Assembly (NCBI RefSeq): GCF_003144115.1
Contig: NW_020312014.1
Span: forward strand, 98,620 to 162,619
Direction: 5' to 3'
DNA length: 64,000 nucleotides
From: Tilletiopsis washingtonensis
Lineage: Eukaryota; Basidiomycota; Exobasidiomycetes; Entylomatales
In this document: in pieces, positions 29,320 to 64,000 of the stretch
Layout of the letters: each line of letters starts with the position of its first letter
Numbering within the stretch: position 1 is the stretch's first letter
The notes under the pieces: model-generated
The model's input: only the letters and a program-made list of their open reading frames with translations
The model's database searches: none
Told to the model about the DNA's origin: nothing
Position numbers and translations under genes: made by a program

Positions 29320-31181
29320 ATGCCCATCAAGCCAAGCCCGTCGCCCGCACGCAGCAGCGCTGCTCCGTCGCACGCGGCGGCAACGGCGTCACGCTCTTCC
29401 GTCTCTGCGCACTCATGTCGCTCTGAGCTGAGCTCGGCATCGCTGCCCAAGCGCGCGGAGCGCAAAGAGAGCGCCGCAGCGTCGGAGCGCGCCGAGAGCG
29501 CTGCGGCGCGGCTCTGCAAGCGAGACGAGAGCGCTGCGCCGTCAGATGTTGGCGCCGCATTGCCAGCGCTTGCACGGGCGTCGTCGGCTGCTCCGTCAGG
29601 GGCACGGTCGCCGTCAGCCGCGCCCCGGTCAGGCGCAAGCTCGCCGCTGCTGCCTACGGCTGTCATCGGCCCTGCCTCCAGCTCGCCATTGGCCTCGCCC
29701 AGCGTCAAGAAGTCCGGATCACGGGCACCAACGCCAGTGGTGATTGCGCCGCCGCCGCCGCCTGTGCGTCGCTCTCATCGCGCTCGTCACTCGCAGCGCG
29801 AGATCTCCGTCATCAGCTTGCTCGACGACGACGAGCCTGAGGATGTGAAGCCGTCAGCGACGGCACACGGCAAGAAGCGACAGCGCTCGAGAGCCAGCAG
29901 CAGCGACGGCAGCTACACGAATGACGAGACGCCTGCGCCAAAACGACGGCAAAGGCAGCTGCGTCGCTCGCGTCGCTCGACAAATTCCATCATTCAGCCG
30001 CTGTCTGACGAGGAAGAGGACGAGCTCAAGGACAGCGGCAACGAGGCAGCGCCGCCGCCCGCGGCAGCACTGAAGCGGAAGCCGGGGCCCGCAGAGCAAC
30101 AGCGGATGAAAGCCGAAGTTGCCGAGTTTGACGAGGGGTGGGACGAGGAGAGGCTGCTCTCCGAGACGGACGACGACGGCGTCGCTGCTGCTGGTGAGGC
30201 AGAGAAGACCGACTCTGCTACAGTCGCACAGCTGACACCGCAACAGCAGACGCAGAGGAGACTCAGCCGAAGAAGACGGCACCGACGACGACGACGGCGG
30301 CAGCTCCGTACAGCCATCTAACGGCAAGAAGCCAGCAGCAAAGCCGTATCCGCCCGAGAAGGCTCATCTGCTCGTCAAGGCCGTCGGAAAGCACCCCGAG
30401 CTCGTTCGCTTCATCAACAACCGCAACGAGCCGATGACTGCGGAGATCCGCCAGAAGATCCACCGCATCGAGCAGAAGACGTGGCCCGAGAGAGTCAGCA
30501 AGCCACATGGGCCGGCGTACCGACTGCGCTACCGCATAGCCACTCGCTTCTTTGCGTTCGGGGGGCGCTTCGGCATCCATCTGCTCTCTCGCCCGCTGAA
30601 AGAGTGGCCAAAGCGCGAGCAGCGCGAGATGCGCGAGATCATGGTGAAGCACCTCCTTCCGTGGTGGGAAGACTTCCAGCGCCTGTTTGCGCTGGTGCCC
30701 GGCGGCGTCTATTATCAGAGGTCGGCGCCGCCCATCGCAGGACCTTCGAACGCGAAAGGCGCAGCGCAGACGACGTCAAGCCGTGCGATGTCTCCGACGT
30801 CAGCAGTCAGGCTCGACCGCATGCAGCAGGTGCTTCGCAAAGTGCAGAGCTTGACGCAGTCGCTCCTCACGAGCAGCAGCGCGGACAAGACTGCGAGTCA
30901 GGCGATGCTCTCGCTCTCGTCGGTGAGTCGCTGCGAAGAGCTGGCGTCGCTCGCGAAGAGGCGGCGTGCTTTGCATGTCCTGACGCCGCTGCCTGCAGGA
31001 GCTCATCGACCTCGACGCCTTTGCTGCTGACGTCAGTATCAAACAAGCAACCCTCGCCATGGTCAAGCTAGGCAAGACTGGCCTCAAGCTGACCGTAGCG
31101 GAAAGTGCGGGCTGCGACAGGATCCGCAGCTTAGCGCTCGAAGCGCTCAGCACGTTCGAGGAGGAGGAGGAGGAGGAATAA
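29320..31181 (+). CDS. Putative nuclear protein, member of the new C-terminal-module family
   Basis: Exons 29320-30193, 30267-30922 and 30999-31181 give 570 residues; I do not recognise a described family. Residues 1-300 are Ser/Ala/Pro-rich and disordered, with basic clusters that look like nuclear signals (GKKRQRSR, KRRQRQLRRSRRS) and acidic patches. The conserved-looking middle contains EKAHLLVKAVGKHPELVRF and PWWEDFQRLFALVPGG. The last exon encodes QATLAMVKLGKTGLKLTVA and DRIRSLALEALSTF, then a run of seven Glu. These C-terminal blocks align with the three intronless genes at 53.4-58.5 kb. The first intron acceptor (30266) is the only one that joins the two open frames. It converges on the R3H-SUZ gene, with 76 bp between the two stops. 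Confidence 0.65.
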
Positions 31182-49938: not shown

Positions 49939-52900
49939 ATGAGTGCCTCGGCGCCGTCCGAGCGCACCTCGGCGCGCAAGAAGGCCGACGGCCCGCCCTC
50001 GGAGCCGAGCGAGACGCGCAGCCTCGTCTTCGAGTGGCCGCTCTTTGGCCTGCGCCAGATGTTCGACGGCTCAAAGAGCGACACCAAGAGCAAGGTCGTC
50101 AAGAGCGTGCCCTTCGGCGGCGGCAGGTGGACGGTGCTGTTCTATGCGCAGTCGGGACACGAACAGGTGAGCGCATGCGCAGGAGGAAGGCTAGGGTGGG
50201 ACTGGTGGGTACGAGGCGGGCCCTTGAGTGATGCAAGGCTGAGGACAGTGACGAGACTGGCAGGCGCAGAGGCGGCAGGGCTGAGGACAGTGATGAGGCT
50301 GGCAGGCGCAGAGGCGGCAGGGCTGAGCATTGGCAGCACTCCGGCTTGCGCCATGCCGAGGCCCGCAGCAGTGCGTAGGGCCGAGCTGTGGCTGGCGGCG
50401 CAGCAGCAATGCTGAGGCTGGCCCGTCTCGAAAGCGGCGGCGCACGTAGGCAGATGCGCCGCGCTCGGGCTTCATGCCGCTGACTTTAGTCCCTGCAGTT
50501 CTGCTCGCTGTACCTCAACGCCGAGCCACTGGCGCACGAGCGTGTGCGTCCGCTCATCGCCGGTGTGCAGTCGCCCGCCATGAACGAGGCGCGCGAGGCG
50601 AGCGGCAGCGGCGGCGGCAAGAGCAAGAGCGGCAGCGACGGCGACGACAAGTGGTCGCGCGAGGGCCTGTTCCGCTTTACGTTTGAGATTCAGCCGCTGG
50701 ACAAGTCGGGCGCGACGAAGCTCGGCACCAAGGGTGAGTCCGCTGGATCTGCACCTACCGCAGCAGCAGCCGCTGAGCACCTTACGTGCTGCAGAGGCGC
50801 ACGACCATGCCTTCTCGCACAAGACGAGCAACTGGGGCTGGGCCCAGTTCGCCAAGCGCGACACGGTCTACTATAGCCAGCCGCAGGTGAAGCAGGCCGA
50901 CGGCTTTCTCATCTCCGTCACCATCACGGCCAACGCCGAGCGGCCACGTCCGCGTGCGCCCGTGTATCACACCGTGCCGCCCGTGCTCATCTCGGCCATG
51001 GGCTCGCTGCTTGATGATCCCGAGCACAGGTGAGTCAGACGTGCCGCGCTATCGCTCCCACCTGCTGCTGATGCATTCCTGTGCCAGCGACGTCGTCTTC
51101 CACATCGCCCAGCCGCGCGGCCGCAGTGGGCGCCGCACAGCGCCCAAGAAGATCTACGCCATCAAGAAGATCCTGGCGTCGCGCAGCGAGTACTTCGCCG
51201 ACATGTTCAATGGCGGCTTTGCGGAAGCCGAGCGTGCCGAGGACTCCGAGGAGGAGATGGAGGATGCCGGCCTGCTGCTGCGCTCTCGCTCGCCGCTCGA
51301 CAATGCGCCGGCGCATCCGCAGGGCGCGCCGGAGTTTGGCAGAGGCGCTTCGAGTGCGCAGTATGGCGAGCGTGCGGGCGAGGTGGAGGCGGACGACTAC
51401 GAGCGTGGGCCCGAGGCGCTTCTGGAAGACTCGGACGAGGAGCTCGATGACGATGCAGACTGCTGGTCGCTCGCCACGCCGCCGCCGGCCTCTTCGATGA
51501 TGGGCGGCGCCCCCGCGGCGCCGGCGTCGGGCGACGGCGGACACAAGTCGGGCGACATGAGTGAGGAGGACGAGGATGATGAGGTCGACGACGATCGTCC
51601 AGTCGAGGACGACGTGATCCAGTTTGGCGCAGGCAAGAGCACGAGCGGCGGAGGCGATGCGGGCATCAGCAGCAACATGCACTCGCCGCTCGGCGGTGCC
51701 GATGGAGAGGTAGTCAGCAGTGACCAGGGCCGCAGTGCCAATTGGCCTGCCGGCGGCACGGCAGAAGGCACAGCGTCGACGTCTGGCGGACGCACGCCGG
51801 CCAAGCAGCAGCGCCTCGCATCGACGGCACTGCAAGTGACGGGCGATCGCTCCATGTCCGGCAACGTCACGCCCTCGCGCCCCGCCGTCGCTTCGTCGTC
51901 GGCACACGCCGAGGGCGTCACGCGTGCACTGCTGCAGAGCGGCAGCGCCAAGCGTGATCGGCCGGATGTCGCAACGACGCGCAATCGCTCGGCCTCGGAT
52001 AGACGGAAGCGTCGCAAGGTGGTGAGTGGTGCTCGTCCCCTTCCGCTCCGCTCTCCCCCTTCCTTTCTTGCGTCGAGCGTGCTGTCGCCCACACTGCCTC
52101 TTCTTCCCCCCCTTGCCCCTCTCCCCTTTGCTCCTCTTCGACTCTCGCCGCGCGCCGTGACTTACATCTAGCGCGACGCTGCCTCTTCTCCCGTGCGTTT
52201 CCGACACGTGCAGGTCGTGCGCGACTCTTCCTACGCCACGTTCAAGGCTCTGCTCTGTGAGTGTCTCTTCCCTGTCCCATCGTCGCCGCAGCGGCTCAAT
52301 GATTGCTCGCGCGTAGTCTTCCTCTACACCAACGCCATCGAGTTTGCGCCCCTCACATCGTCCTTCCTGCCGCCCGACGTCTCGGATGACGCCTCGAGCG
52401 ACAACACGCCGGCGCTACTAGCTGGGCGCGAGGCGTCGAGCCGCGGCGGCTTTCTCGAGGAGATCGTGCGCGCACACAAGAAGTGAGTGGTGCTGAGTGC
52501 CCGAGCGACGTCGACCTGCTGCTGATACTCGTTTCACGTCGATGAGGCGCCAGATGGTCATCGATCAGTACTGCGCCGAACACCCTGACAAGCCGGCGCC
52601 GTGCTCGGCAAAGGCGATGTACAAGCTGGTCAGTGCTTGACGCGCAAAAGCTGATTGCGTCATGCACTGCTGACGCGAGTGCGGCAGGCGGACAAGCTGC
52701 AGATCGAAGACCTCAAGAAGCGCGCGCAGGAGCACATTGCCAGCAGCCTGACCGTGCAGGTGCGTGTCTCTGCTCTCACGGCAGCATGCGCTTGCTGACC
52801 CCTTGTCGCCATCAGAACATCGTCTGGGAGGCCTTCTCCGGCTTCAACGCACAGTACCCGGACATCATGCACGTGCGTACATGCCTCTCGCACACCGCAG

Positions 52901-53179
52901 CGGCGCTGCCCCGCTGATACTTGGCGCTTGGCAGATGGAGATCGACTTCCTGCTCAAGCACTGGGCCTCCGTCAAGAAGGCGACGGTGATGCAGACGATC
53001 TTCACGCGTCCCACTGCGCATCCGGGTCTGGCATATGGTGCGTTCTGCTCGCACCATCCCTCGCTCGCACGACTGACGCGCGCTCGTCACCAGTCTGGCC
53101 GCTCGTGCTGCAGCACCTCTCCGTCAACGCAGACGAGGAGGCCGCGGCCGAGGACAGCCGCGCCGTCATCACTCTCTGA
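49939..53179 (+). CDS. MATH-BTB domain protein with long insertion in the BTB domain
   Basis: Eleven exons (49939-50166, 50499-50733, 50795-51029, 51088-52021, 52214-52256, 52317-52482, 52547-52628, 52688-52759, 52816-52872, 52935-53037, 53094-53179) encode 746 residues. The first third looks like a MATH/TRAF-type beta domain (FEWPLFGLRQMFDG, WTVLFYAQSG, WGWAQFAKRD). A BTB domain starts SDVVFHIA and reaches ILASRSEYFADMFNGGF. The BTB helix SSYATFKALLFFLYTNAIEF resumes only after an acidic, Ser-rich insertion of about 300 residues. The C-terminal helices (LADKLQIEDLKKRA) follow. MATH-BTB proteins are usually substrate adaptors of Cullin-3 ubiquitin ligases; that role is inferred. Intron 1 (332 nt) contains a 42-bp tandem repeat. 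The sixth intron (52483-52546) ends in gag. Confidence 0.85.
50237..50320. repeat. 42-bp tandem repeat in the first intron of the MATH-BTB gene
   Basis: Two units begin ggctgaggacagtga at 50237 and 50279 and differ at a few positions. A third, short copy starts at 50321 (ggctgagcat). The array is wholly inside the 332-nt intron 50167-50498. Confidence 0.9.
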
Positions 53180-53399
53180 GCAGTCTCTTTGCGCATCCCT
53201 CCTGCGCCCTCACGACCCTTGTACAGTATCTTACTCACGACGCCGCCATGACACATATTCCCGCGTTCTGATCGTCATCACGTCTCTGGCACTGCTCGCG
53301 GCGGGCTCGCATGGTCTCATTGCAGGTCGACGAAGCGCGATTTATGAGCAGCGCGCGGGCGAGAGCGAGCCGCCTCAGTCGGAGAGCGAGCTTTGCGCC

Positions 53400-54662
53400 T
53401 CAGTCGAGATCCTTCATAGCAGCGAGAGCGTCCTGACCGAGAGCGTGGATGAGCTCGTAGGTGTCCGACTCGGCGGATCCGAGGTCGAGCGACACCTCGA
53501 ATGCGAGCTCGACGAAGCGGTACAGCGCCTTCTTGGCGCGCTTGTACGAGCACTTCGTCGGCTCTAGCACGCCGTCCTCCTCGAGCGAAGAGAGAAAGAG
53601 CAGGAACTCATCGAGCTTGTCGCTGCCGCCGTCGCCGCGAGGAATGCGGCACGAGAGCTGAAAGAGGCGCTTGTGGTTGAGGATGGCGGAGACGCTCGTC
53701 GGGAGCGACGGGTCCTCGGAAGTGGGCGCAGCAGTGGATGGCGCACGGCTTGACGAGGCGACAGCGCGGACGGGCGGCTCGGCCTCGGTGCGAGGTCGCT
53801 TGGCGGGCATGACGGCGACGGCAGCGCCGGACGCAGGACGAGTGGCGGCAGATGCAGAGCGCTGCTGCTCGAGCACCCACTCCTGCGTGGCCCGCGATGC
53901 ATCCGCCTCGAGCTCTAGCAGCTGATCGTATGCTCCAGGACTCGCCTCGGGCCCCTCCTCCTCCAATGCAGCCTCCTCGGCGACGTCCTGCTCCTGCGCC
54001 ACTGCCTCGGACGCAGCCATCTCGGATGCGGCTGCTCGACCGATCTCCTCGCCCTGAGAGTTCAGCGCTGGAAGCTTAACGAGCGAAGCGCATGGCGAGG
54101 ACTTGATGAGCGTACGCGGAGCCTTGAGCGCTGCAGGCAGCGCGGCAATCTGCTTGGTCGGCGGGAGAAGAGCGGCCGCGGAAGACGTGGCGAGGGCAGC
54201 GCGGCCAGCGGCCGTCGAAGAGATCACAGGCTCGCTGGGCGGCACGAAGACGAGCTTGAGGCGGATGTGGTCGTGCCACAACGGCAGCCACGGCGCGCAC
54301 GGGTCGCGGGCGAGTGCCTCGCGAGCTTGGCTTGGCCACTCGGCAAACGGCGTGCTCCACACTTTGACGCAGCCGTCCAAGACCTTGATCTTGCGCATCG
54401 CCTCCATGTACCATCCCCTCATGTCAGTGATGACCACCTCAACGGTATGCTCGGCCAGCGAAGGGCCTCCCGCCTTCAGCCAGGCGCGATTGGCGTCCCA
54501 TAAAGCATCATCAAAAGCGCGCAGGCCTCCTTTGGTGCGGCCGCCCCACTCAGCCCATCGTATGATGCATGCGTGAGGAATGGTCTTCTCGAGAAGGACG
54601 CGAAGCTGTCGCGGACCGTAAGAGCGACGCCGGCAGTCGGCTGGGCCGAGCTTCTTGGGCAT
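53400..54662 (-). CDS. Unknown family protein, intronless copy 1 (420 aa)
   Basis: A single exon of 420 residues starting MPKKLGPADCRRRSYG. I recognise no described family. Residues 1-140 are Trp-rich and partly helical (IIRWAEWGGRTK, GWYMEAMRKIKVL) and end in PWLPLWHDHIRL at about 124-134. Residues 150-320 are Ala/Glu-rich and disordered, with a basic nuclear-signal-like AKRPRTE. The last about 95 residues form a helical module: ILNHKRLFQLSCRIPRGDGG, RAKKALYRFVELAFEVSLD and ELIHALGQDALAAM. That module is shared with the next two genes and with the gene at 29320-31181, and the W-L-P-L-W-H-D motif with the 419-residue copy. Its intronless structure is unusual here. Two palindromic direct repeats lie 51 and 70 bp upstream of the ATG. 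A DNA-associated role is a guess. Confidence 0.75.
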   Translation of the reverse strand: MPKKLGPADCRRRSYGPRQLRVLLEKTIPHACIIRWAEWGGRTKGGLRAFDDALWDANRAWLKAGGPSLAEHTVEVVITDMRGWYMEAMRKIKVLDGCVKVWSTPFAEWPSQAREALARDPCAPWLPLWHDHIRLKLVFVPPSEPVISSTAAGRAALATSSAAALLPPTKQIAALPAALKAPRTLIKSSPCASLVKLPALNSQGEEIGRAAASEMAASEAVAQEQDVAEEAALEEEGPEASPGAYDQLLELEADASRATQEWVLEQQRSASAATRPASGAAVAVMPAKRPRTEAEPPVRAVASSSRAPSTAAPTSEDPSLPTSVSAILNHKRLFQLSCRIPRGDGGSDKLDEFLLFLSSLEEDGVLEPTKCSYKRAKKALYRFVELAFEVSLDLGSAESDTYELIHALGQDALAAMKDLD

Positions 54663-55286
54663 CTCGAGCTTGGCAGAGGTCGAGGGCTACTGCGCTGTCG
54701 GTGGAGTGTGGCAGTGCGCACTTCGAGTGGCAGTGCGCACTTCGATGTCTGGAAAGAGCGGAACGACGTAGAGGAAGTGAGAGAAAGAGAGCAGTCGCGA
54801 GGAGGCAGGGTAGTGATGGTGCTGAGACGAGAGCAGCGCGTCGCACCGTACCAGCCCTGCACACAGCAGCGCCTTATCGCTAGGGTCGGCGAAGGGAGCG
54901 CGCGGCCAGAGCAAAGTGCTCTTGATCACAAGGAGAGAGCTCGTCGACGCGACGCGACTCTAAACGAGCTTCACGCCCTCTTCAGTGATCACGCTCAGGG
55001 GCTCGGAGGCTCGCGCGACGCATGTTTTGCCCCCTGACGAGCGACGCGCGCGGCGTGTGCCCAGCGGCCGCAGCCCTCCCGCATGTGGACGCCTCAGCGG
55101 CGTGTCCGTCAGTGCGAAGCTGCAAGAGACTGCACTCTCGATACTACAGCGGGTCTCAGCTATGATATGATTGCCTCAAGCCTGGCCAGGTGACATCGAC
55201 GCTCGAGCACGGCTCGCGCTTGCGAGCGACATGTAGGCGACGGACGCACGCTGCACGTCGATTGCGCTTCACGACGCGCCTCGCGA
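54663..55286. other. Intergenic, upstream region of intronless copy 1
   Basis: 624 bp between two minus-strand genes. It holds the putative promoter of the 420-residue protein, including a 19-bp direct repeat described separately. The plus-strand open frames here show no support. Confidence 0.55.
54708..54745. promoter_or_regulatory. Two direct repeats with AGTGCGCACT palindrome
   Basis: The 19-bp unit gtggcagtgcgcacttcga occurs twice in immediate succession. Each copy contains the perfect 10-bp palindrome AGTGCGCACT, at 54713-54722 and 54732-54741. They lie about 51 and 70 bp upstream of the start codon of the minus-strand 420-residue gene, a position that suits a transcription-factor dimer site. 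No factor can be named. Confidence 0.5.
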
Positions 55287-56828
55287 TCAGAGGAACTCCT
55301 GCAGCGCCTTGAGCGCATCCTCTCCGACTTCACGGATGCGATCGACCGCCATCTCCGTTGAGTCAAGCTCGTCCTCCTTTCTCGCGCTGTGATCAAAGGC
55401 CACGCGGAAGCCCACCTCGACGAGCTTGAAGAGCGCCAGCTTGGCGCGCTTGTGCACGCCTGCAGGCTCGCGCTTCTGCGGTCCGTTGAGGTCGTCGAGG
55501 AGGCCCTCATCATCTAGCTGCGTGACTGTGCGCAGGAAGTCGTCGAGGCCTTGACTGCCTTCGCCGTCGCGCGGAATCTGGCAGGCGAGACGCAGCAGAC
55601 GACGCAGGTTGAGCACGTCCGTGACGCTCTCCGGCAGCGCAGCCGGGATGCGGGGAGCCGTGATAGGCACTGCCGCTACTGCCGAGCCCGGTGCGGCGTC
55701 TGGCGCTGGAGTGCTGTCTGCAGATGCTACAGCGACGCGCTTCGATGGTCGCGGCTTCGCTGTTGGCTGCTTTGGTTGCAAGCGAGAAGCTACCGTGCCG
55801 AGACGAGGCGCCGGCACTGAGGCTACTGGTTGCGTAGACGCAGCGGCTGGTGCAGGTGGTGCCGCTGCGCAAAGCTGAGGCGCAGGCGCCGATGCTGCCG
55901 GCTGCATCGCCTCGCTCTCGGATGCGTGGCGCAGAGTGGAGGCCTGCGAGCGCTCCGCGTCGGTGCGCGTCGAGTCGTCCATTGACTCATCCTCGTCTTC
56001 GCCCTCTCCATCGTCATCCTCTCCTTCAGCATCTTCCTCATTGCCTTCCTCCTCTTCTCCATCCTGTTCATCATCATCCTCTCCCTCTGCATCCTTCTCA
56101 TCTCCCATCTCTGCGTCGCCATCGTCGTCCGTCGCGATTGGGCTCGGCGGAGGAATGACGAAAGGTTGCTGCTGCTCGGGCAGGAGTGGTGCTCCAGTTG
56201 GCGTCGTAGCTGGCTGGCGTCCAGGAGTGCGTTGGAGCTGCGTGGCGCTTGTTGTGCTAGCCGTCGCAGCGCCGTATCCACCAGACATGAGCCCAGCAAT
56301 GAAACGGTCTGCCTCAGTAGCGCCGTCGCCCTGCAGCGGCACAGGCGGAGGAGCTCCAGCATACGGTGCGCTCGTGGAAGGCCCGCCCAAGGCACCTGTC
56401 GCAATCGCCTTGCTCTGGGCCTGCATTGCCTGGGCAGGCGAGCGGCGGGGCTGCGTCGCACCTAGCGTGCTTGCTTGCGGCTCGCCAAAGATGGCTTTGG
56501 CGTCGGCAGTGGAGAACGGCGCTTGCTGCGCTCCCGGCGTGGCGACAGCACTTGAGCTCGGCGCACCGTGGCTCTGCGCCATCTGCGCCGTCTGTGCTGC
56601 TGCCGCGCTGGCCGCGGCGCCGGTGGCCACGCTTGAGCTGCGCGGCGTGCTCGCTGCCGGTCCGTGCGACGCGTCGGCATGAGCCTGCGCAGTGCTGGTG
56701 CTGGCGCTCAGAGCTGTGCTCTGCGGCATGGCAGAGGCTGCGCGCTGAGCCTGCGGCACTGCGGGCTGCTCATGCCAGTAGGTGGTGCCGGCCTTGGGTC
56801 TGGGACGAGGCGCAGTGGCGCGCGGCAT
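55287..56828 (-). CDS. Unknown family protein, intronless copy 2 (513 aa)
   Basis: A single exon of 513 residues starting MPRATAPRPRPKAGTTYWHE. The first about 400 residues are low-complexity: Ala/Ser/Gln/Pro-rich, with an acidic Asp/Glu tract around residues 230-275 and a basic KPRPSKRVAV. The last about 110 residues form the family module: VLNLRRLLRLACQIPRDGEG, RAKLALFKLVEVGFRVAFD and DRIREVGEDALKAL. The match to the 420-residue neighbour is clear (shared R.L..L.C.IPR.G.G). Unlike the two flanking copies I see no W-L-P-L-W-H-D motif, so the N-terminal domain is absent or replaced by disordered sequence. Function unknown; the composition suggests a nuclear protein. Confidence 0.72.
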   Translation of the reverse strand: MPRATAPRPRPKAGTTYWHEQPAVPQAQRAASAMPQSTALSASTSTAQAHADASHGPAASTPRSSSVATGAAASAAAAQTAQMAQSHGAPSSSAVATPGAQQAPFSTADAKAIFGEPQASTLGATQPRRSPAQAMQAQSKAIATGALGGPSTSAPYAGAPPPVPLQGDGATEADRFIAGLMSGGYGAATASTTSATQLQRTPGRQPATTPTGAPLLPEQQQPFVIPPPSPIATDDDGDAEMGDEKDAEGEDDDEQDGEEEEGNEEDAEGEDDDGEGEDEDESMDDSTRTDAERSQASTLRHASESEAMQPAASAPAPQLCAAAPPAPAAASTQPVASVPAPRLGTVASRLQPKQPTAKPRPSKRVAVASADSTPAPDAAPGSAVAAVPITAPRIPAALPESVTDVLNLRRLLRLACQIPRDGEGSQGLDDFLRTVTQLDDEGLLDDLNGPQKREPAGVHKRAKLALFKLVEVGFRVAFDHSARKEDELDSTEMAVDRIREVGEDALKALQEFL

Positions 56829-57209
56829 CGTGGAAGGCGCGTGCGCAGCGCGTGTGCGAGAGGACGGCGCGCGTGGCCGGAAATGGCAATGCGATGCGGC
56901 GCAGTGAGCAGCTTTGCAATAGGAGCGGCTGAGGAGGTTAAGGAAAGCGAAGGGAGGAGAGGAAGAATATATGAGGAAGAGAGAGGAGTGGGAGTTGAGA
57001 GGCAGGAAGAAAGGATGCGCGCTGCTGTGCGCGCCAGCGCTTGGGCCGCGTGATCATAGGGGCACGGCCGCGCACGTGTCGCGCCTCCTCTGAGCTCCCT
57101 TCTCACCTCCATCTTGTCACAGCTGCTCCCATGCATCCACTCACTCCTACAGAGAACCTTCAAGCATGTACACCTCTCTCTCGCACTCGATGCCATTGCC
57201 ACGGCTGAA
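56829..57209. other. Intergenic, upstream region of intronless copy 2
   Basis: 381 bp between minus-strand genes, containing the presumed promoter of the 513-residue protein. Nothing else seen. Confidence 0.55.
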
Positions 57210-58469
57210 CTACAAGAGAGTGTTTAGGAGCTCCTCGTTGAGCTCGTGCAGCACCGCGTGCGCCTCGCGCGCGAGATCCTTGATCCTCTCGCACGCCGCA
57301 CGCTCTGACGTCTCAGCGCCGTCGTCAAAAATCGAGTAGCCGTGCTGTACAAGCTTTGACAGACACTGGCGCTGCTGCATCACCTGCGTGCGGTGGTCTG
57401 CTGTCTCTGGCTGCGCAGCTCGCGCGTCGCAGATGCTGCGCATGGTGCTGCGGAAGCTCTCGAGCTCTGCGCTGCCCTTGCCCTTCAGCTGCGCCTTGGT
57501 GGGATACCCGAGGCTGATGGAGAGAAGGCGCAGCGGCAGCGCAGAGAGGAAGGAGTTGACACGTGCGGTGAGTTGCGCAGAGAGAAGCAGCGGCTTGCTG
57601 GCGGAGGTCGAGGGCGTCGACGCAGATAGAGGGACTGAGCTGGGAGCTGGAGGCGCTGCTGAAGAGTTGCTTTGAGCAGCCGACACCGTCCTTGAGGAGT
57701 GCAGAGCAATTTCATCATGCCAGAGCGGCAGCCAGGCAGCATATTTGTCGGTGCTGAGCCAGTGGATCACGTCGCGAGGCAGCTCTGCATACGCGCAGCG
57801 TGTCCATGGCTGCGGCGGCGCCTGCTGAAGTGCCTGGTGTACGTCACGCATGGCTTGCTCGTAGCGCTCCCACATCCTCTTGACCGCAGCAGCCAGCGAG
57901 CTTGGCTTCATAGTCGGGATGTACGGCAGGCATGTGCTCATCACGTCGCTGCAGAGCTTGTCTAGGTCGCTGCTGCTGAGACTAGCCGGACGACGTCCTC
58001 GAGTTGCTGCCCAGGTCCGCACGTCGGACTCGTGTACGCTGTGCTTGCCGCGCGTGACGTGTAAGAGCTGCTGTAGCATGATGAGATGCTCTTGCGGCGT
58101 CCACTCCCGCGGCACAGTCTTGGGACAGGGAGGCGAGGACGGACGAGGGCGAGGGCAAGACGCCGTGCGAGCCTGAGGCTGGGGTGACTGCTCGCGAGGC
58201 GACGGCGGCTCGCACTCAGCCCGCAGGGCTCGATGAGGCTGTTCAGCTTGCTGCGCATGCGGACCGTCCTTCTTGCTCTGCGAGGAGGCGCTCGGCCGTG
58301 GCTTTGGCCTGGTTTTGACTTCAGGCGGCGAGGGCTCTGGTGAGAGCACAACGTATCGATGGGAACGACGGCCACGCGCCGGCATGGTGGGCTGCTCGTC
58401 CTGCGTTGCGGCCTGCGTCGCGGCCTGCGTTGCGGCCTGCGTCTGCGGCAGTATGTCCTCAGGCTGCAT
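57210..58469 (-). CDS. Unknown family protein, intronless copy 3 (419 aa)
   Basis: A single exon of 419 residues from the ATG at MQPEDILPQT. The frame is open 20 codons further upstream, but without an ATG, and a 5' leader intron ending just before this ATG is possible. Residues 11-23 are a QAAT repeat. Residues about 121-215 contain EWTPQEHLIMLQQLL and VKRMWERYEQAM, a spacing of Trp and helices reminiscent of Myb/SANT-like DNA-binding domains (tentative). AAWLPLWHDEIALHSS at 244-259 matches the 420-residue copy. The C-terminus has QRQCLSKLVQHGYSIFDD and ERIKDLAREAHAVL, aligning with the module of the other copies but the most divergent of them. The gene sits 300 bp from the GCN20 stop. Confidence 0.72.
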   Translation of the reverse strand: MQPEDILPQTQAATQAATQAATQDEQPTMPARGRRSHRYVVLSPEPSPPEVKTRPKPRPSASSQSKKDGPHAQQAEQPHRALRAECEPPSPREQSPQPQARTASCPRPRPSSPPCPKTVPREWTPQEHLIMLQQLLHVTRGKHSVHESDVRTWAATRGRRPASLSSSDLDKLCSDVMSTCLPYIPTMKPSSLAAAVKRMWERYEQAMRDVHQALQQAPPQPWTRCAYAELPRDVIHWLSTDKYAAWLPLWHDEIALHSSRTVSAAQSNSSAAPPAPSSVPLSASTPSTSASKPLLLSAQLTARVNSFLSALPLRLLSISLGYPTKAQLKGKGSAELESFRSTMRSICDARAAQPETADHRTQVMQQRQCLSKLVQHGYSIFDDGAETSERAACERIKDLAREAHAVLHELNEELLNTLL

Positions 58470-58769
58470 GGCAAAGAGCTGAGATGGTGGTGAGTGGAAG
58501 AGAGAGCGCAGCGCTGTCACGCTGGCCAAGTGCTCCGCTACCTTGGGACGCAGCCAGGCACACAGTGCGACGCGTCGCGTGAGGGTTTCTCAGCGAGAAG
58601 CATCGCATTGCGTGCAAAGAGAGGGGCTGCGACGAAAGGGGGAAAGGGGTCGCACCGCTCATGCTCGTCTCGCGAAGGCACGCCGGTCTCGTGTCGAAGA
58701 AGACATGCCGGCGCGCGTATGCTCCCATCGCAGGCACGTCGGCGCCTCGTCGACGCGAGGCGGCGCGCT
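58470..58769. other. Intergenic between unknown gene and GCN20
   Basis: 300 bp hold the presumed promoter of the 419-residue gene and the 3' end of GCN20. No other feature seen. Confidence 0.5.
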
Positions 58770-61663
58770 CTACATCGCCGTCTGCTGCTTCTTGTTCATC
58801 TCGATGATGATGCGCTTGTACGCGTCGACGTCGCCGTGGAACTTGCGCAGCGAGCCCTGGTCGGTGACCCAGAGCTGCTCCATGCATGCCTGGATGAAGC
58901 GCTGGTCGTGGCTGATGGCGATGACGCCGCCGTTCCACGCCTTGATGGCGTCAATGAGCGCGTCGAGACCCTCGATGTCCAGGTGGTTCGTCGGTTCGTC
59001 GAGCAGAAGCACGTGCGGCCGCATGAGACTGAGCTGCGCGAAGGCCACGCGCGACTTCTGTCCTCCTGAGAGCGTGGCGATGATCTGCAGGCCCGTCGGG
59101 CCCTTGATGCCGAACGCGCCACTAGAAGAAGCAGGTCAGCAGATGAACGCCGCCGAGAGGCGTACGGACGACGCACAGATGCGAGCGGTACTCCTCGACG
59201 CTCTTGCCCGGGAACTTGGCGGCAAGGAAGGCGACAGGGCTGACCGTGAGGTCGAGCTGGCGGAACAGAGCGCGTCAGTGTCGTGCGACGCCTAGTGGAG
59301 CGCTTGGACGCACCTGGTCGATGTGGTGCTGCGAGAAGAAGCCCACGCGCAAGCGGCTGTTGCGCTTCTGGTCGCCGGTGAGCGGGTTGATGTGGCCCAT
59401 GAGCAGCTGCGACGGAGCGTCAGTGAGGTCAATTCGCGGCAGCGACGCAGCAGCAGTCGCACCTTCATCAGCGTCGATTTGCCTGGCGAGCGGGGCGTCA
59501 GCCGATGAGCGAAGCATAGCTGGTCCTGAGCTGCTCACCTGCACCGTTCGAGCCAACGACGGCGATGCGAGATTCCATCGTCACATCGAAGCTGTAGATG
59601 GCGTGAGCATGGGCACAGTTGCGCAGTGCATTGCGAGAACTCACTTGACGTCGCGCAGCAGAATCTTGTCGGCCGTGTAGCCGAACGTGACGTTGTCGAG
59701 CTGGAGCACAGCGCATCAGCAGCCGCAGCGCAGCACACCCCTCGCTCATGCTCACCTGCAGCAGCGGCGGCGCAAGCTTCTCCGTCTCGGGCAGCTTGAA
59801 GCGCACCACCTCGTCCTTCTCCGGCTCCTCGACCTCCGGCATGCGCTCGAGCTCCTTGATCTTGCTCTGTGCCTGCGCCGCACGGTTGGCATTGTAGCGC
59901 CAGCGGTCGATGAAGGCCTGCAGATGCGCCCGCTTCGCCACCGACGCCTCGTACTCGCGCAGCTGGTTCTTGCGCCGCTCCGTCCGCGTCTCGTAGAACT
60001 GCGTGAAGTTGCCCTTGTACTGAGGCAGAGATGAGCGTGGTGAGCTGCAGATGAGTGAAGAGCAGACTCACGTAGTCGAGCCGCTCAGAGTGCAGGTGCA
60101 CGATGTCCGTCGCGACAGTGTCGAGGAAGGATCGGTCGTGACTGACGACGAGCAGCGTGCCTGTCGCAGAGCGTCAGAGGCAGGCGAAGACGCCCGCACG
60201 CAGCCGACTCACCAGGCCACTCGTTGACGAGGTAGTCCTCGAGCCAAGCGATGGCGTTGAGGTCGAGCACTGCGGCGGGTCAGCATGCAGCATGTCTCGG
60301 CCTGATGCTGGTGCTGCTCACTATTCGACGGCTCATCAAGCATGAGCAGGTCAGGCTTGCAGAAGAGCGCACGTGCGAGCGCGATGCGCATGCGCCAGCC
60401 ACCACTGAAGGCTGCGAGCGGCGAGAGGTCAGCGTCGCACGCCATTGCGGTTGAGCTGGCACTTGGAGCAGCCGCCCACGCTCTCGCCCGCGCTCCAGCT
60501 CTGAGCACTCACCCGAAGTCGGCTTGGACTGGTCTTTGTCCAAGATGCCGAGACCGCTGAGCAGTGCTGCAGCTCTGCTCGGGCCCGTCTCCGCCTCCAT
60601 GTCCACCAGCTTGGCCTGCACCTCTCCCAGCCGAGCCGTGAGCTCATCACGGCGAATCTCTCGTTGCCGCGTCGGCATGTCGACCGCGCCTCCGGCCGGC
60701 GCACTGCCCTCTGCCTTTGCTGCCGCTGCCGCCTCGTTCGCTGCCTTCACGCTGGCCGCCGCTGCTGCCTCGAGTGCAGCCAGCTCAGCGTTGAGCGCCG
60801 CCTCCTCGGACATGAGCTTGTCGCGCCACACGTCGGCCTTGAGCACGGCCTCGATGGCGCTGATGTTGTCGCCTGTGACTTCCTGCTCGACGTACAGAAT
60901 GGAAATGTGCGTCGGGATCGGCACCTCGCGCAGCGCCATGTTGCGCAGCAGCGTACTCTTGCCCGTGCCTGAGCGCTACAATCAGCACTGCCTCCAGGTG
61001 AGCAGCAGGGCGTGACTCACCATTCCGCCCGATGAGGCCGTATCTCCGCCCCTGCGCCAGCGTGAGTGACGCGCCCGAGAGCAGGCGGTTCGAGCCAAAT
61101 GACAGGTCGATGTTCGGCAGGTGCACGTCCTTGTTCTTGCTCTTGTTGGCCGCGTTCTCGAGCGGGTTGACCTTGAGGAACATCTCCTCGTACGTCTCCT
61201 GCTTGCGTGCATTCTCCACGAGCTTGCTGCTCTCGTATAGGTCGCGCTGCGCACGCTTCTGCAGCTTGGCGCGCGTCTTCTCCTCCTGCTTCTCGAGCTT
61301 CTTGACGTCGACGGCACTGCGCGCCTTGGTGGTGCCACCGAGCGCCAGATCAACGCCGCCGGCCTGGTCAAAGCCGGCGGTGCGGCTCAGCTCGGTGCGA
61401 CCCATGTCGACAACGCGGTCGAGGCGCAGCAGCGGCCCTTCAGCGGTGGAAGACTCGGGCAGCAGGGCCGCCAGCTCGCGCAGCACATCGTCTACGCTCG
61501 CCGACGCCTTGGGGTCCGACGCCGTGGCGGACTCGAGGATAGCGCGCACGAGGTCGAGCACATCGTCGCGCGGATCCTCGGGCGCATCGACGTAGCCGGC
61601 GAGATACTCGACGATGGGCTCGTCGAGGTCGGGCAGGGCGCGCTCGAGCACGCGGGTGGCCAT
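58770..61663 (-). CDS. GCN20: Gcn20-type ABCF ATPase
   Basis: Twelve exons (61663-61021, 60968-60513, 60411-60322, 60269-60213, 60160-60072, 60019-59756, 59700-59645, 59591-59539, 59482-59463, 59406-59314, 59256-59177, 59121-58770) encode 750 residues. Two ABC ATPase domains without membrane spans are present. The first has [30 protein letters not shown] and LDEPSNMLDL; the second has [29 protein letters not shown] and [14 protein letters not shown]. The Ser in DEPSN of domain 1 is also found in yeast Gcn20. The N-terminus ([13 protein letters not shown]) matches the Gcn20/ABCF3 extension that binds Gcn1. With Gcn1 it helps activate the eIF2-alpha kinase Gcn2 on stalled ribosomes. The exon 59463-59482 is a 20-nt microexon. 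The gene shares a 265-bp promoter region with ATP15. Confidence 0.95.
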
Positions 61664-62812: not shown

Positions 62813-63620
62813 GCGTCTGCCTTTTCCGGCAGTCGAGGCATTCACACACACGCGATGAGCTAGCGGCGGCACGGAGCGGCATGCACTTAGCTTCTCCCTC
62901 CGCCGTCGCGCCGTCCGCGACAAATGAATGCTTTCGTTGAGTCCTCTGAACGCGTGATTCCGTGCGGCCGTGTGAGGCAGAGACTGAGAGGATGAAGAGA
63001 AGGCGCATGCAGACAGAGCGGCGCGCGGCACACGTCGAGCTCAACCGCTGTGTGGGGCAGATGGGTTAGGCATGATGAGCATGACCTCGGGCATCGAAAG
63101 CCGGGCGTGCCCGCCGTGCTAACCGCTGCTGGAGATAAAGCACAACAACGCGCTCTAGGCTCCCCCTCTCGCTTCTCCCTCGTCATCATGTCCTGGGGCT
63201 TCAGCAGCGCTGTGCCCGTGCTTGCCTCAAGATAGCTGCTCCGCTACTTCTGCTCCTGTCTGTCACTGTCCACCAGCTCGTGACATCGCCCGTCCGATTC
63301 GCCGCTCTAGCGTAAAATGTCTCGATTGCCACATTAGCACTGAAGCACACAGGGATAGTGCTGACCTGCCTCACTCTCTTTCCTTCGGGAGACGAGGAGC
63401 TGATGTGGAGGCCTCTGGGCCTTGCGGCGCCGTCGAGCTCATCATCGGCTGCTCATCTACAGCGGCTTCCGCCGCTCGGCTGTGCGCTACGCTCTTCACC
63501 TTCACTCCACATCAGCCAAGCCTCTCCTCCTCCCTCGCTACGCTTCGACCACAGTGAGCGTCGTCTTGCCGGTGTCTACTCCCTGACTCACATGACGCCG
63601 CAAAGCATAATTCCATCACC
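62813..63620. other. Intergenic, no supported gene
   Basis: 808 bp between ATP15 and the next plus-strand gene. Open frames of 60-150 codons occur on both strands without motifs or splice continuity. The last about 100 bp before 63621 are AT-richer and C/T-rich, in keeping with a promoter and leader. Confidence 0.5.
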
Positions 63621-64000
63621 ATGAGCTCTGCCAGCTCTTCATACGAAGCAAGCACACAGAGCGGCACGCCGCCGCCCCGAGACGACGTGGACATGGACGT
63701 ACAGGACAGCCTCTCGGACGCCGATACCGGCCGCGACGACTCTGACAACGAGGAAGCGGGCCATGATGGTGTCGACAAGTGGAAAGATGAGCAGCTCTGC
63801 GACCTCATCCGCGCCATCTCGACGTGGGAATCGCTCAAGCAATGGTTCGCCGACACGAGCAGATCGCGCCTGCCAGACCGAGCCGGCGCTCAGCTCGACT
63901 GCCTTGCTCGAGAGGTGGGCGTCAACAGAGGCGATGAGAATCTCCGGCGCGATGCTCACTGGCTCAAGAACACATTCTTCCGCCTCTTCTTCGAAGTGCC
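63621..64000 (+). CDS. Unknown protein, N-terminal part, truncated by window edge
   Basis: An open frame starts at ATG (MSSASSSYEASTQSGTPP) and runs without a stop to the end of the window, 126 codons. The first 50 residues are acidic and disordered (DVDMDVQDSLSDADTGRDD). From residue 52 a Trp-containing helical region begins: DKWKDEQLCDLIRAISTWES, LKQWFADTSR and AHWLKNTFFRLFFEV. This arrangement (acidic/Ser-rich lead, W..E.L..L, later W) resembles the N-terminal region of the 419-residue unknown protein and the middle of the 29320-31181 protein, so it may be a fifth member of the same family. The C-terminal module that would settle this lies beyond the window. Confidence 0.6.
   Translation, partial: MSSASSSYEASTQSGTPPPRDDVDMDVQDSLSDADTGRDDSDNEEAGHDGVDKWKDEQLCDLIRAISTWESLKQWFADTSRSRLPDRAGAQLDCLAREVGVNRGDENLRRDAHWLKNTFFRLFFEV

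Follow-up and report, generated by a model that had tools for sequence, protein, structure and literature searches.

Three consecutive intronless genes on the minus strand of Tilletiopsis washingtonensis contig C17, here called A, B and C, belong to what is almost certainly one local, fast-evolving multigene family of 19 genes. They lie in a window of 64,000 nucleotides (nt) (C17:98620-162619) from a GC-rich genome of 18.7 Mb in 32 contigs, and the reading of open reading frames (ORFs) bears out their arrangement, which an earlier note on this DNA had proposed. The self-contained trio of that note is not borne out: the three genes are part of the larger family on the contig, of which the shared parts are an N-terminal domain (N-domain) and a C-terminal helical module (C-module). 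For this established family we infer a function as clustered nuclear, DNA- or chromatin-associated proteins that would pair through the C-module, the best explanation of the whole, with a probability of roughly 0.45. The features of the three genes, in window coordinates, are as follows.

53400..54662, minus strand: gene A, an intronless ORF of 420 amino acids (aa) with N-domain, disordered linker containing a motif like a nuclear localization signal (NLS), and C-module
54249..54635, minus strand: N-terminal family domain of A, ending in ..APWLPLWHDHIRL (by homology and profile)
53784..53801, minus strand: NLS-like motif KRPRTE of A
53403..53720, minus strand: C-module of A (by BLASTP and profile)
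55287..56828, minus strand: gene B, an intronless ORF of 513 aa with low-complexity and acidic parts, and the C-module only
55987..56127, minus strand: acidic tract of Asp and Glu in B, encoded by degenerate repeats of about 30/60 nt
55290..55652, minus strand: C-module of B (by BLASTP and profile)
57210..58469, minus strand: gene C, an intronless ORF of 419 aa with low-complexity head, N-domain, linker and C-module
57687..58118, minus strand: N-terminal family domain of C, ending in ..AAWLPLWHDEIAL (by homology and profile)
57213..57602, minus strand: C-module of C (by profile; four helices predicted, with block means of the predicted local distance difference test (pLDDT) of 52-87)

On sequence comparison, the N-domain is the family's most widely shared part. 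Residues ~10-142 of A and ~113-262 of C share it at 26% identity (BLASTP, E=9e-7; 26.2 bits, a score reached by 0 of 2000 shuffles, the best of which gave 13.2); it is about 115 aa long and terminates in WLPLWHD.I.L in both proteins. A profile seeded with five domains (those of A and C, two in ORF 227341 and one in ORF 231477) was iterated at an independent E-value (i-E) <1e-3 over the 2563 ORFs of at least 50 aa in C17:58600-282599, where 8542 of the 224,000 positions are N (20 of these filler). New members were found immediately (best E 2.7e-23), and the iteration converged on 20 N-domains in 18 of the ORFs, the next ORF having E 0.04. B was among the ORFs searched and is absent from the matches (E<=10); with B, which has the C-module only, the family comprises 19 recognised genes at C17:128.9-251.9 kb, including two more that lie wholly or partly in the window.

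30236..31027 (C17:128855-129646), plus strand: fourth member in the window; its N-domain (30335-30709) joins in iteration 2 with i-E 5.6e-9
30999..31181, plus strand: second half of the C-module of member 128855, in another frame, a putative 3' exon after ..CTGCAG
63558..64000 (C17:162177-163013), plus strand: fifth member, cut by the end of the window; its N-domain starts at 63768

None of 5126 reversed or shuffled ORFs was admitted by the iteration. Starting from the single seed 163703, it reaches the same 20 domains and no outsider, A joining in round 4 and C in round 5, and with a profile of the 18 domains outside the trio, A (E 2.1e-5) and C (4.7e-4) score directly behind the members used to build it, ahead of the next ORF (0.021) and the best of 5126 decoys (0.12). 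BLASTP joins 52 of the 171 possible pairs of the 19 proteins at E<=1e-3, of which 21 reach E<=1e-10. The members, with stop-to-stop frames of 196-792 aa, follow a common plan: a Trp-rich N-domain of about 115 aa, with an invariant Trp (WP region) and a P.WW-type end; a low-complexity linker; and, in at least eight members, the C-terminal helical module. The earlier note's statement that everything outside the C-module is disordered and has diverged almost completely is therefore true of B and of the linkers only, A and C having the N-domain in common. A genome search for the motif WLPLWHD with up to two mismatches gave 15 places versus 12 for the reversed control, and is therefore no evidence alone; C17 holds six of these places (A, C, 228451, 231945, 191065 and 572365), of which 228451 and 231945 proved to lie inside new members, and 191065 is not supported as a member by its ORF.

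The C-module was the feature by which the earlier note had joined the three genes. This stands for A and B, which are 38% identical over the last ~110 aa (BLASTP, E=6e-12). The C-terminus of C has no BLASTP match to A or B, and its membership is upheld by profile: that of A and B recovers the sister copy C third among the 661 window ORFs, behind A and B themselves (E 0.08, 8.9 bits; next 4.6), a score reached by 0 of 2000 shuffles of the C tail. The single-sequence test from B to C gives 8.2 bits (0 of 2000 shuffles reach it, best 7.8), and that from A to C is not significant (1.8 bits, matched by 133 of 2000 shuffles). The C-module is thus firmly established in A and B, and moderately in C, whose link is by profile, the single-sequence tests being weaker.

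In the wider family, the profile of A, B and C gives four weak matches, at 129603, 232553, 228974 and 204162 (E 0.016, 0.11, 0.5 and 8.7), each directly 3' of a family member and on the same strand. In members 198799, 203227, 227341 and 231477 a GTGAGT donor and a CAG acceptor precede the second half of the C-module, which is in another frame; all four have this junction at one common position in the module, which suggests that an intron splits it in these genes. In 128855 the acceptor side alone is seen. The first half in 231477 is also out of frame with the N-domain, so that this gene requires one more intron. The module of A, B and C is read continuously, without an intron, where several other members change frame; the tree described below, being unrooted, is compatible with loss of the intron in the trio as well as with its gain in the others. 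When a profile was made of the five second halves from outside the trio, A, B and C ranked 6-8 of 3609 ORFs, behind its own five (E 0.011, 0.091 and 0.28 for these three matches; next ORF 0.93). In the other direction, the trio profile recovers 129603, 232553 and 228974 (E 0.0022, 0.03 and 0.13; next 0.74). The C-module accordingly forms the C-terminus of at least eight of the 19 family genes.

Such similarity could be compositional, any helix rich in Ala, Leu and Glu matching any other, as the weak matches of C and of the members outside the trio might suggest, together with a shuffled decoy that outscores B and C with the profile from outside the trio. For A and B this is refuted by their BLASTP match; for C no shuffle reaches its score; and the weak matches fall directly 3' of members, on the right strand, with a common splice-like junction, the best of 5126 decoys reaching 7.5 bits with the trio profile, under all three of its matches (9.6-15.2 bits). 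A compositional origin is thus extremely improbable, and homology of the C-module is preferred.

The ORFs of A, B and C run from Met to stop without interruption, and no hydrophobic signal peptide is obvious at the first Met of any of them (by eye, no predictor being used). The gene call for A in the protein database has 335 aa versus 420, and begins inside the N-domain, and therefore automatic annotation truncates A. A perfect 2 x 19-bp tandem repeat (GTGGCAGTGCGCACTTCGA) is found at window:54708-54745, immediately upstream of A, and a 12-bp tandem repeat at window:58400-58449 encodes a run of Ala-Ala-Thr-Gln close to where C begins.

Whole-genome searches with seven protein queries (A, C, B, the N-domain of C, the C-module of B, and members 163703 and 227341) gave matches only at C17 152-229 kb, apart from one with E=3.8 on another contig. 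The reach of these queries is short (A finds B and C alone, 163703 six other members, and 227341 four others), so diverged copies may exist elsewhere. Within the interval 128-252 kb no finer clustering is significant, as 659 of 5000 random placements reach the median neighbour distance. In an unrooted tree of the 20 N-domains (3 of 17 inner branches with strong support), the first domains of 198799 and 227341 group together and, apart from these, so do their second domains; hence the gene that was copied between the 198-kb and 227-kb groups already had two domains. The arrays at C17:198-204 kb and 226-232 kb resemble copies of one block, with the cross-matching pairs 198799/227341, 201197/226694 and 202635/229793. 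The domains of A and C join the second-domain group with a support of 94/92 and each other with 82/45, the branch of C being long; end branches in general are long (median 0.99 changes per column). Local duplication followed by fast divergence, as the earlier note had suggested, agrees with a crude Nei-Gojobori (NG86) estimate for A and B over 106 codons (nonsynonymous divergence dN 0.53, synonymous divergence dS 0.69); for A/C and B/C the estimate is at or near saturation.

The closeness of dN and dS for A and B also invites the reading of a partly non-functional set: duplicates in decay, or ORFs open by chance in GC-rich DNA, with vestiges of one ancestral gene. Long open frames are many at high GC, and B lacks the N-domain and has irregular codon-position GC. 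Decay, however, would hardly preserve recurrent modules, their order, one place of an exon junction and 19 stop-to-stop frames of such length, and we judge this quite improbable. A better candidate, still unlikely, is a family of interaction proteins that do not bind DNA, evolving under conflict as components of allorecognition, killing or host interaction. Families driven by conflict commonly form local arrays, diverge fast and contain large low-complexity parts, and all three features are seen here, but no catalytic, membrane or toxin-like Pfam domain exceeds the cut-off in the trio, 10 further ORFs and 19 single domains, the proteins A, B and C have no signal peptide obvious to the eye, NLS-like motifs are present, and C17 is devoid of homeobox (PF05920) and STE3 (PF02076) matches at E<=0.1, by which a mating-type locus was also rejected.

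The preferred reading, that of clustered nuclear proteins associated with DNA or chromatin, is composed of parts that differ in strength. Nuclear location is probable from the recurrent KR[PR]R motif. Binding of DNA or chromatin is tentatively proposed: the N-domain may be a Myb/SANT-like domain of trihelix or MADF type, because to the eye it has the order W...Li, A..WP and a basic [VLI]R..[LV].RL...F stretch, which we take, from consensus sequences compared by eye, to be the order in PF12776, trihelix PF13837 and MADF PF10545. Somewhat more doubtful is the suggestion that the C-module is a helical bundle serving as a means of pairing between family members. Because B has the C-module and an acidic tract and is without the N-domain, it might be a partner or modulator of the N-domain proteins. 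Related nuclear regulators with differing partners or targets would then be the outcome of repeated duplication and divergence. The boldest form, in which these are new sequence-specific fungal regulators with an uncatalogued SANT-like domain and their own pairing module, expanded in a 123-kb region under diversifying selection, is improbable as a whole. The homeobox-like look of GWYMEAMRKI in A was rejected, its Trp not being conserved in C.

The nuclear part of this reading draws on the motif KR[PR]R[LVTFIM][DSTE], which is seen in 7 of 19 family ORFs but, among the 378 other ORFs with 196 aa or more, in one alone (Fisher p=1.3e-9); a looser pattern occurs in 8 of 19 versus 11 of 378. A number of findings weigh against the reading. 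The pattern was picked after the family sequences had been viewed, paralogues are non-independent, and the motif is absent in 12 of the 19 members, including B and C. A and C have no BLASTP match outside the trio at E<=1e-3, the only pairs of the trio at this level being A-C and A-B, and therefore A and C are tied to other members by profile only. The C-module is not detected in 11 of the 19 members; the trio profile found no more than three of the five second halves outside the trio; and the best of 5126 decoys with the profile from outside the trio (E 0.055, 11.5 bits) beats B and C, although it stays below A (13.1 bits), so that the C-module link of the trio to other members seems weak for B and C singly. 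No Myb/SANT or other DNA-binding fold was matched in Pfam, NCBIfam or the PDB. The AlphaFold2 model of the N-domain of A is poor (mean pLDDT 46, at which structure matches are meaningless), and the C-module model, compared by Foldseek/VIA-align, matches generic helical bundles only.

The earlier description of the module as helical and without a named domain agrees with these comparisons. AlphaFold2 on C (three sequences) predicts four helices in the C-module and gives a poor N-domain. No Pfam family exceeds its cut-off for the trio, 10 further whole members or 19 single domains, no NCBIfam family fits the trio proteins, and by sequence nothing in the PDB fits. Weak Pfam names (DotU, DUF7877, Nop14, Phage_tail_APC with E 0.0021, and others) are below cut-offs, and in the scan of single N-domains each appears on 1 of 19; matches of the C-module profile to TALE repeats were rejected, as no single stretch passes and the score is a sum of weak matches over repeats. 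HMMER filters drop weak matches, and remote membership of the Myb/SANT-like, trihelix or MADF families is therefore compatible with these results; a search of the genome with PF12776 gave no match, as did control genomes, and is no evidence of absence. In the protein database, whole A retrieves only the window's own protein (7999 candidates sharing most words were scored), as do residues 316-420 of A (293 candidates), and residues 115-262 of C have no match (213 candidates); no relatives were found in viral and prokaryotic collections. Such a family was not found described in titles and the starts of abstracts, a thin search that is no proof of its being unpublished; among these the closest in topic is on smut orphan genes (PMC5897528).

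The neighbouring ORFs are of ordinary kinds (Sec7, class-II phosphodiesterase, MRP-L46, BTB and ABC-transporter-like). The BTB-domain gene beside A (window:50891-52483) has short introns apparent on reading, unlike the trio. One further explanation of the family is a captured transposon accessory protein, such as the Myb-like ORF of PIF/Harbinger, domesticated and then multiplied locally. Myb/SANT-like proteins accompany Harbinger elements, and the motif order of the N-domain is, by eye, reminiscent of such domains, but neither transposase nor reverse transcriptase was found among 20 window ORFs scanned with Pfam, no long flanking or terminal-type repeats surround the trio (52400-59200), where there are two inverted pairs of 20-23 nt that are 78-80% complementary, and the matches are confined to one contig and not dispersed; this origin is therefore held improbable. 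Elsewhere in the genome, PF05920 matches on C7 and C22 and PF02076 on C1. Two Homeobox_KN matches at G000:C22:40649-42433, on opposite strands and ~1.5 kb apart, resemble a divergent bE/bW-type pair, the plus-strand match being below the family cut-off, and G000:C1:611503-612780 holds a STE3-type pheromone receptor gene in exon pieces.

What were three orphan genes are thus placed in a defined family, neither of whose two modules was found here in Pfam, and the alignment of ~20 diverse N-domains is large enough for fungal proteomes to be searched by profile and for a good structure prediction to be attempted. If the nuclear reading is true, the family would consist of clustered, rapidly diversifying regulators in a compact fungal genome, among ordinary genes; if it is false, the family would still be an uncatalogued domain family, likely missed by automatic annotation. 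In the boldest form of the reading, the family would be the fungal parallel to clustered regulators with fast turnover, such as the KRAB zinc-finger clusters, and B would be a natural modulator that acts by pairing only.

Like Myb/SANT-like domains, the N-domain opens with a Trp and a Leu/Ile-rich stretch, followed by A..W and then a basic stretch. Unlike them, it yields no significant Pfam match for 10 whole members or 19 single domains, is longer, and has a conserved WP and a P.WW...[YFW]..I.L end, a combination that we know of in none of the Myb/SANT-like, trihelix or MADF families. Lineage-specific tandem gene families, for example smut effector clusters, are known in fungi, and like them the present family occurs in local arrays, diverges fast and is without known domains. 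Unlike smut effector clusters, the trio is without a secretion signal obvious to the eye, and the family has nuclear-type motifs and two conserved modules and is mixed with ordinary genes, among them the Sec7, MRP-L46 and BTB ORFs.

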